Below are positions 24,447 through 26,852 of a stretch of DNA of 33,201 bases, piece after piece. The stretch spans positions 1-33,201 of the forward strand of contig CAIPAI010000065.1 of assembly GCA_903863015.1 (NCBI GenBank), read 5' to 3'. Below the pieces are notes generated by a model. The model saw only the letters and a list, made by a program, of their open reading frames with translations, was not told the origin of the DNA and searched no databases. The first letter of the stretch is position 1; the number at the start of each line of letters is the position of its first letter. The translations under genes and the position numbers were made by a program. The DNA comes from an uncultured Actinomycetes bacterium. Lineage in GTDB: Bacteria; Actinomycetota; Actinomycetes; Nanopelagicales; Nanopelagicaceae.

Positions 24447-24457
24447 GTTCCCTCTTC

Positions 24458-24529
24458 CCTTGGTGCTTTCCTTGGTGCTTTCCTTGGTGCTTTCCTTGGT
24501 GCTTTCCTTGGTGCTTTCCTTGGTGCTTT
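24458..24529. repeat. Six exact tandem copies of a 12-bp repeat before livH
   Basis: The plus-strand unit is CCTTGGTGCTTT (minus AAAGCACCAAGG), six identical copies in a row, ending 11 nt upstream of the livH GTG. The unit is a multiple of three, so changes in copy number keep the frame. On the mRNA, AAGGAAAGC recurs every 12 nt and offers several weak Shine-Dalgarno-like AAGG sites. Read in the livH frame it encodes Ser-Thr-Lys-Glu. Perfect identity suggests recent expansion or slippage. Confidence 0.97.
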
Positions 24530-24566: not shown

Positions 24567-24607
24567 AATGCGGGTGGCCTCAGAAAGTATCTGAGACCAC
24601 CCGCATT
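24567..24607 (-). promoter_or_regulatory. Long stem-loop between livK and livH
   Basis: AATGCGGGTGG (24567-24577) pairs perfectly with CCACCCGCATT (24597-24607); after one mismatch CTCAG (24579-24583) pairs with CTGAG (24591-24595), leaving a 7-nt loop. It starts 13 nt after the livK stop. Minus-strand sequence beyond it (ACACTG) has no T tract, so it is probably not a full terminator. By analogy with other binding-protein operons it may stabilise livK mRNA ends or partly stop transcription, giving more LivK than permease. Confidence 0.8.
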
Positions 24608-24620
24608 CTCTACTACTGAA

Positions 24621-25862
24621 TTACTTAACCGTGATGACCTTGAGGCCAACCTCGGCGCCACCCTTGACGATTTCAATGGTGATGTCCCTGTTCGTGGTGT
24701 CACCATTCTTGTCGAAGGAGATTGCCTTACCAACAACCGACTTGGTAGCCGAGATCTTGGTGGTAGCAGCCTTCTTGAATACATCTGCGCGGGTACCGTT
24801 CGAGCGAGAAATCGCATCGAGGATGACCTGCATTGCAGCTGCACCGTAGACGGAGAATGCACCAGTTGGCTCGTGCTTGTACTCCTTCTTGTAGTCAGCA
24901 AGGAACTTAGCTGCAGCTCCGGACTTCGGGAAGAAGTCAATTGCAAGACCGGTGAAGGAGAGGTAAGCGCCATCGGCTTCCTTGAGAGCAAGGAAGTCTG
25001 GGTAACCGGTGAAGCCGTCTGGTGCCATCAACTTAACGGTCTTGTTGTCGCCAAGGATTTTGACCTTGTCTTTAACAAGTTGTCCGCCGTTGAGGTCGAA
25101 GATTCCACCGATGTAGATCATGTCAGGCGAAAGAGCCTTGATCTTGGTGAAGAGAGCTTCGTAGTTAGGTTGCTTGTCATCCCAGCCTTCGCCAGCGGTG
25201 CCATCAGAGAGAACGGTAAGACCGATCTTCTTGGCTTCGGTGGTGAATGCTTGAGCTACGCCTTGACCGTAGGTTTGACGATCGTTGAGAACGTAAACCT
25301 TCTTGACGCCTTCGCTCTTTGCGAAGTTAGCAGCAGCTGCTCCTTGGTTGTCATCTGTGGTGACAACGCGGAAGTAGTTGCGCTTGCCGGTTGGGTAGTA
25401 CTTCTCTGGCTCGCCAGCGTTCCAAGGCTTAGTGAGGCCTGGGTTCGTGTTGGCGTTAGAAACCATGAGCATTGGACCCTTTGGATCTTGGTTCAACACA
25501 GGAACGATGATCTTTGCGCAACCTGAGTTGTAGGTACCCATGACAGCAACTTCGTTGCGGTTAGCAACGTGTGCTTGTGCGTTCTTTGCACATTGAGCGT
25601 CATCCCATGAGCCCTTGGCTGCGGTGGAATCGTCGTACTTCTTGAGTGTGACGTTGTACTTGCCGGCTTTTCCGCCAGCTTGCTTGATGAGAAGAGCGAC
25701 TGCTTCGTTAGTTGTATCGCTCTGGTCCTTCGAACCACCCTGCAGAGGTAGATCGGTAGAAACCACGAGAGTGGTTGCGCCTTGTGCTTGAGTCGTCATG
25801 ACAACGCTCATGGCAACAGCAGCTGCACCAACGGCAGCTAGCGCCTTGAGTTTCTTTGACAT
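24621..25862 (-). CDS. livK: Branched-chain amino acid-type substrate-binding protein LivK
   Basis: Extracytoplasmic solute-binding protein of the Peripla_BP_6 (LivJ/LivK) family, 413 residues. The N-terminus is a Sec signal peptide: MSKK, a hydrophobic core to about residue 22, and a likely signal peptidase I site near AQG-ATT (about 28). There is no Cys in this region, so no lipobox, unusual for a binding protein in a Gram-positive. Two Cys near 91 and 115 may form the family disulphide. Leu/Ile/Val is the default ligand guess; amides or other amino acids are possible. The ribosome binding site GAAGGG lies just before ATG 25862, within the palindrome CTTCCGGAAG (25870-25879), and a structured leader precedes it. 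Confidence 0.94.
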   Translation of the reverse strand: MSKKLKALAAVGAAAVAMSVVMTTQAQGATTLVVSTDLPLQGGSKDQSDTTNEAVALLIKQAGGKAGKYNVTLKKYDDSTAAKGSWDDAQCAKNAQAHVANRNEVAVMGTYNSGCAKIIVPVLNQDPKGPMLMVSNANTNPGLTKPWNAGEPEKYYPTGKRNYFRVVTTDDNQGAAAANFAKSEGVKKVYVLNDRQTYGQGVAQAFTTEAKKIGLTVLSDGTAGEGWDDKQPNYEALFTKIKALSPDMIYIGGIFDLNGGQLVKDKVKILGDNKTVKLMAPDGFTGYPDFLALKEADGAYLSFTGLAIDFFPKSGAAAKFLADYKKEYKHEPTGAFSVYGAAAMQVILDAISRSNGTRADVFKKAATTKISATKSVVGKAISFDKNGDTTNRDITIEIVKGGAEVGLKVITVK

Positions 25863-25882
25863 ATGTTCCCTTCCGGAAGTGG

Positions 25883-25938
25883 CGATGTGAGTTTTAACCA
25901 GGGGTCACTAGGTGACTTTTCACCTAGCGTTCACATCG
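25883..25938 (-). promoter_or_regulatory. Nested stem structure in the livK leader, candidate cis-regulatory RNA
   Basis: On the plus strand CGATGTGA (25883-25890) is the perfect complement of TCACATCG (25931-25938), closing a 40-nt interior. Inside it CTAGGTGA (25908-25915) pairs perfectly with TCACCTAG (25920-25927) around a 4-nt loop. A competing hairpin, GTCAC (25904-25908) with GTGAC (25912-25916), cannot form together with the inner stem. The block lies 20 nt upstream of the livK start codon and begins about where a transcript from the -10 at 25953-25948 would start. No known riboswitch recognised; a multi-site DNA operator built of GTGA/TCAC halves is the alternative. Confidence 0.55.
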
Positions 25939-25947
25939 TTGGTAAGG

Positions 25948-25953
25948 AAAGTA
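25948..25953 (-). promoter_or_regulatory. Possible -10 element of livK
   Basis: Minus-strand TACTTT at 25953-25948, preceded by GGCA, fits TANNNT. A start about seven bases on (near 25940) would place the 5' end two bases before the outer stem of the leader. No good -35 is seen at 16-18 bp. The same hexamer occurs before rpsA (15547-15542). An alternative promoter could lie nearer the response regulator stop. Confidence 0.4.
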
Positions 25954-26000
25954 TGCCAAAAGAAGTGAAAAAGACCACCTTTAGGATCTGCTCCTCGATT

Positions 26001-26036
26001 CGACATGTCGGGTATATGCCTCATAAGGGACATATA
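26001..26036. promoter_or_regulatory. Palindrome and AT-rich dyad in the pdtaR-livK spacer
   Basis: CGACATGTCG at 26001-26010 is a perfect 10-bp palindrome. Beside it TATATGCC (26013-26020) can pair with GGACATATA (26029-26036 in part; eight pairs including one G-U on the minus-strand RNA) around an 8-nt loop. They lie 44-79 bp beyond the response regulator stop and upstream of the livK promoter candidate. They may be operators for livK or a weak 3' end for the regulator transcript; there is no T tract. Confidence 0.3.
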
Positions 26037-26079
26037 ACTAATTTACCGCTATAAAGTCAGACAATGGCGAGGCAGGAAT

Positions 26080-26688
26080 TCAGCTCACGTACTGCTCAAT
26101 AAGGCTCTTGGCTACCTCGCCCATCGTGGTGCGTTCATCCATCGCCTGCCGCTGAATCGCCTTAAACGCCTCGGATTCTGAGAGCTGGTGGTGCTCTATC
26201 AAGATCGCCTTAGCGCGATCAATAGCTTTTCGGGCGGCCAAGCGCTCCCCCAAATCGGCGACCTCTCCTTCAAGGGCCATGATCTCTTGATGGCGACTCA
26301 CTGCTATCTCAATAGCAGGCACTAAATCCGGCAAAGAGAAAGGTTTCACCAGATAGGCCATGGCGCCAGCATCCCTGGCTCGTTCCACTAATTCACTCTG
26401 ACTGAACGCAGTCAGCATTAACACTGGCGCAATCCTGGCCGCCACGATCTGCTCGGCGGCCGTGATGCCATCCATGATCGGCATTTTTACATCCAAGATG
26501 ACCAGGTCGGGACGTAATTCGAAGGCAAGCGCGAGCGCGGCCTCACCATCAGCTGCCTGGCCTACCACGTCATATCCGGCCTCGGTAAGCATCTCTACGA
26601 GGTCGAGGCGAATCAACGCCTCATCTTCGGCCACCACGACACGATGGCGAGAAGCACTCGGTGGAATCACCTGTGGAATCAATTGCAC
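26080..26688 (-). CDS. pdtaR: Response regulator with ANTAR RNA-binding domain (PdtaR-like)
   Basis: Two-component regulator acting on RNA by antitermination. The 202-residue product has a receiver domain (about 15-130): acidic pair Glu21-Asp22, phosphoacceptor Asp66 in LVILDVKMP, Thr93 and Lys115, all present. The ANTAR domain (about 140-198) shows LAARKAIDRAKAILIEHH and AFKAIQRQAMDERTTMGEVA. It matches Mycobacterium Rv1626 (PdtaR) in architecture, and the neighbourhood agrees. The partner kinase (PdtaS type) is not in the window. It starts with GTG at 26688, six bases after TAGGCT and without a ribosome binding site, so it is probably leaderless. It lies upstream of livK in the same direction. 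Confidence 0.94.
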   Translation of the reverse strand: MQLIPQVIPPSASRHRVVVAEDEALIRLDLVEMLTEAGYDVVGQAADGEAALALAFELRPDLVILDVKMPIMDGITAAEQIVAARIAPVLMLTAFSQSELVERARDAGAMAYLVKPFSLPDLVPAIEIAVSRHQEIMALEGEVADLGERLAARKAIDRAKAILIEHHQLSESEAFKAIQRQAMDERTTMGEVAKSLIEQYVS

Positions 26689-26779: not shown

Positions 26780-26852
26780 GCCTCGGTACTCCAACGGTAG
26801 AGAGGGCGGTCTCAAACACCGCACAGTGTCGGTTCGAATCCGACTCGGGGCA
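26780..26852 (+). tRNA. tRNA with anticodon CAA (Leu by anticodon) but short variable loop
   Basis: A 73-nt cloverleaf. The acceptor GCCTCGG pairs with TCGGGGC over seven pairs, two of them G-U. The D-arm is CTC/GAG with GG in the loop. The anticodon stem GCGGT/ACCGC is perfect, with loop CTCAAAC, giving U33, anticodon CAA at 26813-26815 and A37. The variable region is five bases (ACAGT). The T-arm GTCGG/CCGAC is perfect around TTCGAAT. The discriminator is A; no CCA is encoded. CAA reads UUG (Leu), but bacterial tRNA-Leu is class II with a long variable arm, absent here. Syntenic position between pyk and the ANTAR regulator also carries a tRNA in Streptomyces, as I recall. Confidence 0.8.

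Follow-up and report, generated by a model that had tools for sequence, protein, structure and literature searches.

Few lake bacteria are as abundant as the actinobacteria of the acI lineage, which take up amino acids and other nitrogen-rich nutrients via binding-protein transporters. To our knowledge, little is known about how their transcripts are controlled. The locus described here raises the question of what is served by two nested stems situated directly ahead of such a transporter operon. The window, i.e. the whole 33,201-nt stretch of DNA analysed, is a single contig and carries on its minus strand a livK-like substrate-binding protein gene (PF13458; 24621..25862), which is the first gene of a livKHMG-type operon and is followed by livH, livM and livG-type genes; the name livK rests on membership of PF13458, since the match to the livK-type model of NCBIfam scored far beneath the cut-off. 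Upstream, also on the minus strand, is a gene for a pdtaR-like response regulator (26080..26688) containing receiver and ANTAR domains (PF00072 and PF03861, above cut-off). The element lies between these two genes on the same strand, and their adjacency is conserved in many genera. It was also observed that a tRNA-Leu (CAA) gene is located near pdtaR (26780-26852, plus strand), and that a tRNA gene was present at 6 of the 8 relatives' loci scanned.

The original prediction had described two perfect 8-bp stems, one enclosing the other, and these were found on the minus strand. In the outer stem, CGATGTGA (25931..25938) is joined to TCACATCG (25883..25890) by eight perfect base pairs (25938-25931 / 25890-25883), which were formed with a mean probability of 0.98. 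The inner stem (25929-25920 / 25915-25906) consists of CGCTAGGTGA (25920..25929) and TCACCTAGTG (25906..25915), with eight perfect pairs that become 10 bp upon addition of a C-G and a G-U pair, and is closed by an apical loop, AAAG (25916..25919). The 3′ side of the internal loop is an unpaired linker (25891..25905) with the core CCCCTGGTTA; such an unpaired stretch had been predicted at 17 nt, but measures 15 nt once all ten inner-stem pairs are counted. Between the outer stem and the livK start codon (ATG, 25862) there are 20 nt, the spacing that had been proposed. Inside the outer stem is AUGUGA (25936-25931, minus strand), a start codon followed immediately by a stop, which is invariant in three genomes.

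Folding of the leader gave a minimum free energy (MFE) of -28.7 kcal/mol (z -3.5), and none of 200 shuffles was as stable. When 135 leaders from sampled stretches of the same genome (0.51 Mb in total) were ranked by folding z, the livK leader was third, and the two with better values resembled terminators. A perfect 8 + 8 bp nest within 60 nt occurred once in the window, and since none of 60 dinucleotide shuffles of the window gave a comparable pair, the nested stems are not a product of chance. Being a strong hairpin between two genes, the structure could be a transcription attenuator or a terminator of the upstream pdtaR; this is extremely improbable, as a U-tract after the stem is absent on both strands, the terminator scan lists nothing at the livK leader, and no more than 20 nt separate the structure from the start codon.

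A possible transcription start two bases before the outer stem had been proposed from TACTTT at 25953-25948. The position of this hexamer held, and TGGCATACTTT was invariant within the genus (three genomes), but a simple sigma-70 scan did not pick TACTTT as a promoter. Overlapping it is TGGCATACT (25950..25958, minus strand), a predicted extended -10 (TGG + CATACT) that was also invariant in the three genomes. Because TGGCATACTTT does not vary in the genus and GGCATACT is found again ahead of this operon in three other genera, a promoter at TACTTT is plausible, and from the conserved -10-like site transcription is predicted to start 2–5 nt ahead of the outer stem. The 20 nt before the start codon (25863-25882) were identical in three genomes and contain the Shine-Dalgarno (SD) sequence GGAAGGG (25868..25874, minus strand), of which the bases GGAA were at least 97% unpaired in the ensemble, and a weak local hairpin partly or mostly sequestered the last three.

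Evolution of the element was followed in three genomes, G000 and its two sisters, G001 and G002. Between G000 and G001, the inner stem had seven substitutions with 10 of 10 pairs kept (P about 7e-4 for random substitutions), and between G000 and G002 it had seven differences with 8 of 10 pairs kept, an outcome expected for about 6% of random changes. Across the three genomes, three pairs were changed on both sides, i.e. the compensatory changes sought in homologous leaders were present in the inner stem, and the covariation score was reached by 20 of 500 column shuffles; for three sequences, we consider this moderate support for the inner stem. Thus, pairing was kept despite sequence change in the inner stem, whereas the outer stem, in which one base differed in the relatives (a one-sided change of C-G to U-G that retained pairing), was nearly invariant in sequence and hence uninformative. 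The apical loop read AAAG, AGAT and AAAG in the three genomes, which suggests that shape matters more than sequence there, and the linker core was invariant. Since the leader was kept while 19-21% of the four-fold sites in livK differed and the DNA upstream of the promoter diverged in the sister genomes, the whole promoter-leader unit appears to be under constraint, with the inner stem constrained in shape. The retention of the leader next to diverging upstream DNA, together with the inner-stem compensation, supports the original prediction that the livK message begins with a structured RNA acting in cis.

Two explanations that do without a functional RNA have to be weighed against these data. 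The pairing might be a neutral coincidence within a conserved promoter region, considering that the comparison comprised three genomes only and that 20 of 500 column shuffles equalled the covariation score; the empty window shuffles and the survival of all ten pairs through seven inner-stem substitutions in one sister genome make this very unlikely. Alternatively, the inverted repeats could serve at the DNA level, as operators at which a repressor binds across the transcription start, in keeping with the invariance of GATGTGA/TCACATC just past the predicted start. This explanation is unlikely as well, because the inner repeat varies in sequence while its pairing is kept, a feature not required of a DNA site, some 40 bp lie between the outer arms, and there is a single such element per genome.

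A bistable design had also been proposed, in which a competing 5-bp hairpin, GUCAC-CUA-GUGAC, shares bases with the inner stem. This hairpin was rejected, since its ensemble probability was 0.0002 and its sequence was missing in both sister genomes. The related proposal of a switch responding to an amino acid or a protein is not supported: the competitor contributes next to nothing and is not kept in the relatives, the apical loop varies, and nothing terminator-like was found. A riboswitch could nevertheless be drawn differently, with an amino acid binding the internal loop that contains CCCCTGGTTA and shifting the RNA to a pairing between linker and SD. Between the conserved linker and CCGGAAGGG, pairing is possible at -8.3 kcal/mol; when the outer stem was forbidden, the linker-SD pairing appeared in the best fold, 6-6.5 kcal/mol above the MFE, in all three genomes. 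A C-rich linker pairs with nearly any SD, however, the two-helix anatomy is simple, the competing hairpin originally proposed is refuted, and confinement to one gene in one genus is unlike known riboswitch classes; an aptamer at several genes or lineages was sought, and one copy per genome in one genus was found. We regard this form of riboswitch as improbable, and a metabolite-sensing switch reading of the livK leader is not supported.

The distribution of the element was determined with a covariance model, R1, which detected the leader at no site other than livK, as a single copy in each of three genomes of one genus; in the fourth genome of the genus, the contig ends inside pdtaR. Model searches across the genome itself, its family and its order gave no extra copies beyond chance, the best extra match in the own genome having an E value of 0.17, and the weak family matches (E 0.001-0.1) were about as many as expected by chance for 296 genomes. 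No Rfam family matched the window at the gathering score, nor the region 25700-26100 at E values up to 10, and in the relatives' leaders Rfam detected tRNA only. The original prediction had mentioned the livK RNA motif of Pseudomonadales (RF01744) while claiming no evidence of kinship, and rightly so: the two share the name of the downstream gene, but a covariance search with RF01744 gave no match at E values up to 10, and the hosts belong to different phyla.

The livK leader is most likely an ordinary kind of 5′-end element specific to one genus. The function that we favour, at about even odds with all others taken together, is that of a constitutive 5′-terminal RNA structure tuning the stability or translation of the livK mRNA. 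Transcription would begin 2-5 nt ahead of the outer stem. Folding of the nested helix would precede synthesis of the ribosome-binding site (RBS) and leave most of the SD sequence free; the leader and a hairpin after the livK stop would bracket the message and could provide protection from RNases and/or a favourable RBS context, with the binding protein being made in excess over the products of the downstream permease and ATPase genes. The stem near the predicted 5′ end, the open SD, the variable apical loop and a 3′ hairpin of the protective type all fit such a stable, bracketed message. In ABC operons of Escherichia coli, the mRNA segment favoured by differential decay invariably encodes the substrate-binding subunit; the protective 3′ hairpins have no U-tract, and structured 5′ ends are used in other cases (PMC5927463). 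Stem-loops at the 5′ terminus are described as stabilising mRNAs (Emory 1992, as cited in PMC7509114), and in acI bacteria the transcripts of binding proteins are strongly expressed (PMC5574706).

The 3′ hairpin in question (24568..24606, minus strand) is an intercistronic structure of 17 bp without a U-tract, located after the livK stop (z -8.1), and was third among 65 same-strand gene ends in the own-genome sample. At each of the 38 distinct livK loci tested, a hairpin with 10 or more base pairs was found no more than 110 nt from the stop; these hairpins differ widely in sequence by lineage, and 31 of the 38 have no T-rich tail. As the leader is structured and a strong hairpin follows the stop in every locus tested, livK is, by analogy, bracketed in the manner of E. 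coli operons with a selectively stabilised binding-subunit mRNA. The likeness to the protective intercistronic hairpins of the malEFG type lies in a 17-bp hairpin without a U-tract directly after the binding-protein gene, and concerns the 3′ side of livK. What emerges is an RNA structure maintained at the start of one acI transporter transcript, together with a universal hairpin after its first gene. Between livK and livH (24454-24529), a 12-bp unit (CTTTCCTTGGTG) is repeated in tandem 6.3 times; the two sister genomes lack this repeat.

On the 5′ side, the leader resembles stabilisers of the E. coli ompA type: a strong stem is located at the predicted 5′ end or close to it, the SD that follows is mostly free, and the encoded envelope protein is probably abundant. 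It differs from them in that sequence conservation of the outer stem and linker goes beyond what shape by itself would demand. Near-invariance of the outer stem and of the CCCCTGGTTA linker suggests that a pure stabiliser is insufficient, leaving room for a trans-acting factor or for the linker-SD alternative. Also counting against a stabiliser, no such leader was seen by eye at other substrate-binding protein genes of the same genome, and most of the family has a sequence-conserved leader hairpin, which suggests specific recognition.

The livK leader might be the site for a trans-acting factor that controls livK, stabilising or opening the outer stem upon binding. The first candidate is PdtaR, whose gene is directly upstream in this genus and in many others, and ANTAR-target RNAs of actinobacteria have been reported in mRNAs of transporter substrate-binding proteins (PMC8164766). 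Because ANTAR proteins bind RNA and an ANTAR regulator is encoded just upstream, the leader was tested for the ANTAR-target motif, which comprises two short hexaloop hairpins with A1 and G4 separated by a short linker (PMC3369931, PMC8164766). ANTAR hexaloop hairpins with a stem of at least 3 bp were not found from -110 to +20 of livK in the window, G001 or G002. With the defining dual-hexaloop motif absent, the livK leader is not filed as an ANTAR target, and PdtaR may regulate through another site. Similarity to the targets of EutV, NasR, AmiR and PdtaR is confined to the adjacent ANTAR regulator gene and to the fact that the target would be a leader RNA; the livK leader is one compound nested stem rather than two small hairpins, lacks A1/G4 hexaloops and has no terminator.

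The same locus was also read in relatives. The comparison set comprised 296 genomes of the family, with named relatives including the lake acI bacteria Candidatus Planktophila and Nanopelagicus. The livK leaders of many genera form groups, most of which have a hairpin near the predicted 5′ end that differs in sequence; single leaders of relatives were often not significantly more stable than shuffles upon folding. In the group in which livK does not adjoin pdtaR, seven hairpins could be aligned, with 93% of cells paired and seven cells changed on both sides, and their covariation exceeded that of all 500 shuffles and all slid controls; the count for type-B leaders covers only these seven clearly alignable hairpins, the MAFFT alignment of all type-B leaders being misaligned.

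A different element, TCCCTGTCCCGGGA, was present in the leader of 156 of the 296 family genomes, almost always in one copy per genome, and the control gave no match. Its sites coincide with the predicted transcription start of the binding-protein gene adjacent to pdtaR (e.g. L101, L142 and L160). Among 64 distinct TCCCTGTCCCGGGA leaders, 58 lie 97-274 nt after a pdtaR match, a further point in favour of a trans-acting factor; of the others, 4 are truncated where a contig ends and 2 stand ahead of a second, tandem binding-protein gene in the locus. The element is retained even at loci whose binding protein shares only some 25-30% identity with LivK. The 14 bases that do not vary allow a 4-bp stem with the hexaloop UGUCCC to be drawn (UCCC-UGUCCC-GGGA); some variants have a different loop and a longer stem. 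The element is followed by an optional variable hairpin and often by the RBS ACAGGAAGG. An additional outer stem, CCUGU/ACAGG, was dropped from the model of this element, since it was broken or missing in several genera. There is no Rfam family for the TCCCTGTCCCGGGA leader, and TCCCTGTCCCGGGA was absent from all four genomes of the window's genus (g1).

Taken with the near-invariant outer stem and linker, the linkage to pdtaR keeps a trans-acting factor in consideration as the main, though clearly less probable, alternative to the stabiliser; the conserved loop of the family leader is UGUCCC instead of AnnGnn, and the adjacency may be plain synteny. More tentative still is the suggestion of an undescribed acI system in which PdtaR or another factor reads the leader RNA of the adjacent binding-protein operon. 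The RNA would have diverged by genus, taking the form of the nested stem in the window's genus and of UCCC-UGUCCC-GGGA in most genera, and in the former, opening of the leader stem would allow the conserved linker to cover the ribosome site. The pdtaR-linked TCCCTGTCCCGGGA leader is a better lead, and a more promising unknown, than the leader in the window: being conserved in sequence and found in over half of the family genomes, it makes a link between PdtaR and RNA directly testable (UCCCUGUCCCGGGA leaders).

Two other genera showed leaders with features of their own. In genus g7 (L255, L257, L258, L263 and L266), a short frame, AUG AUC AUG AAU GAA AGG UAC UAA, abuts the start codon of the binding protein and could encode a coupled leader peptide, although it is not kept in all relatives. 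In genus g14 (L193, L253, L259 and L264), the leader after pdtaR has its own nested stems, GUCA/UGAC and GCUU/AAGC, and an inner stem of the CUCGA/UCGAG type, around GGGUCU.
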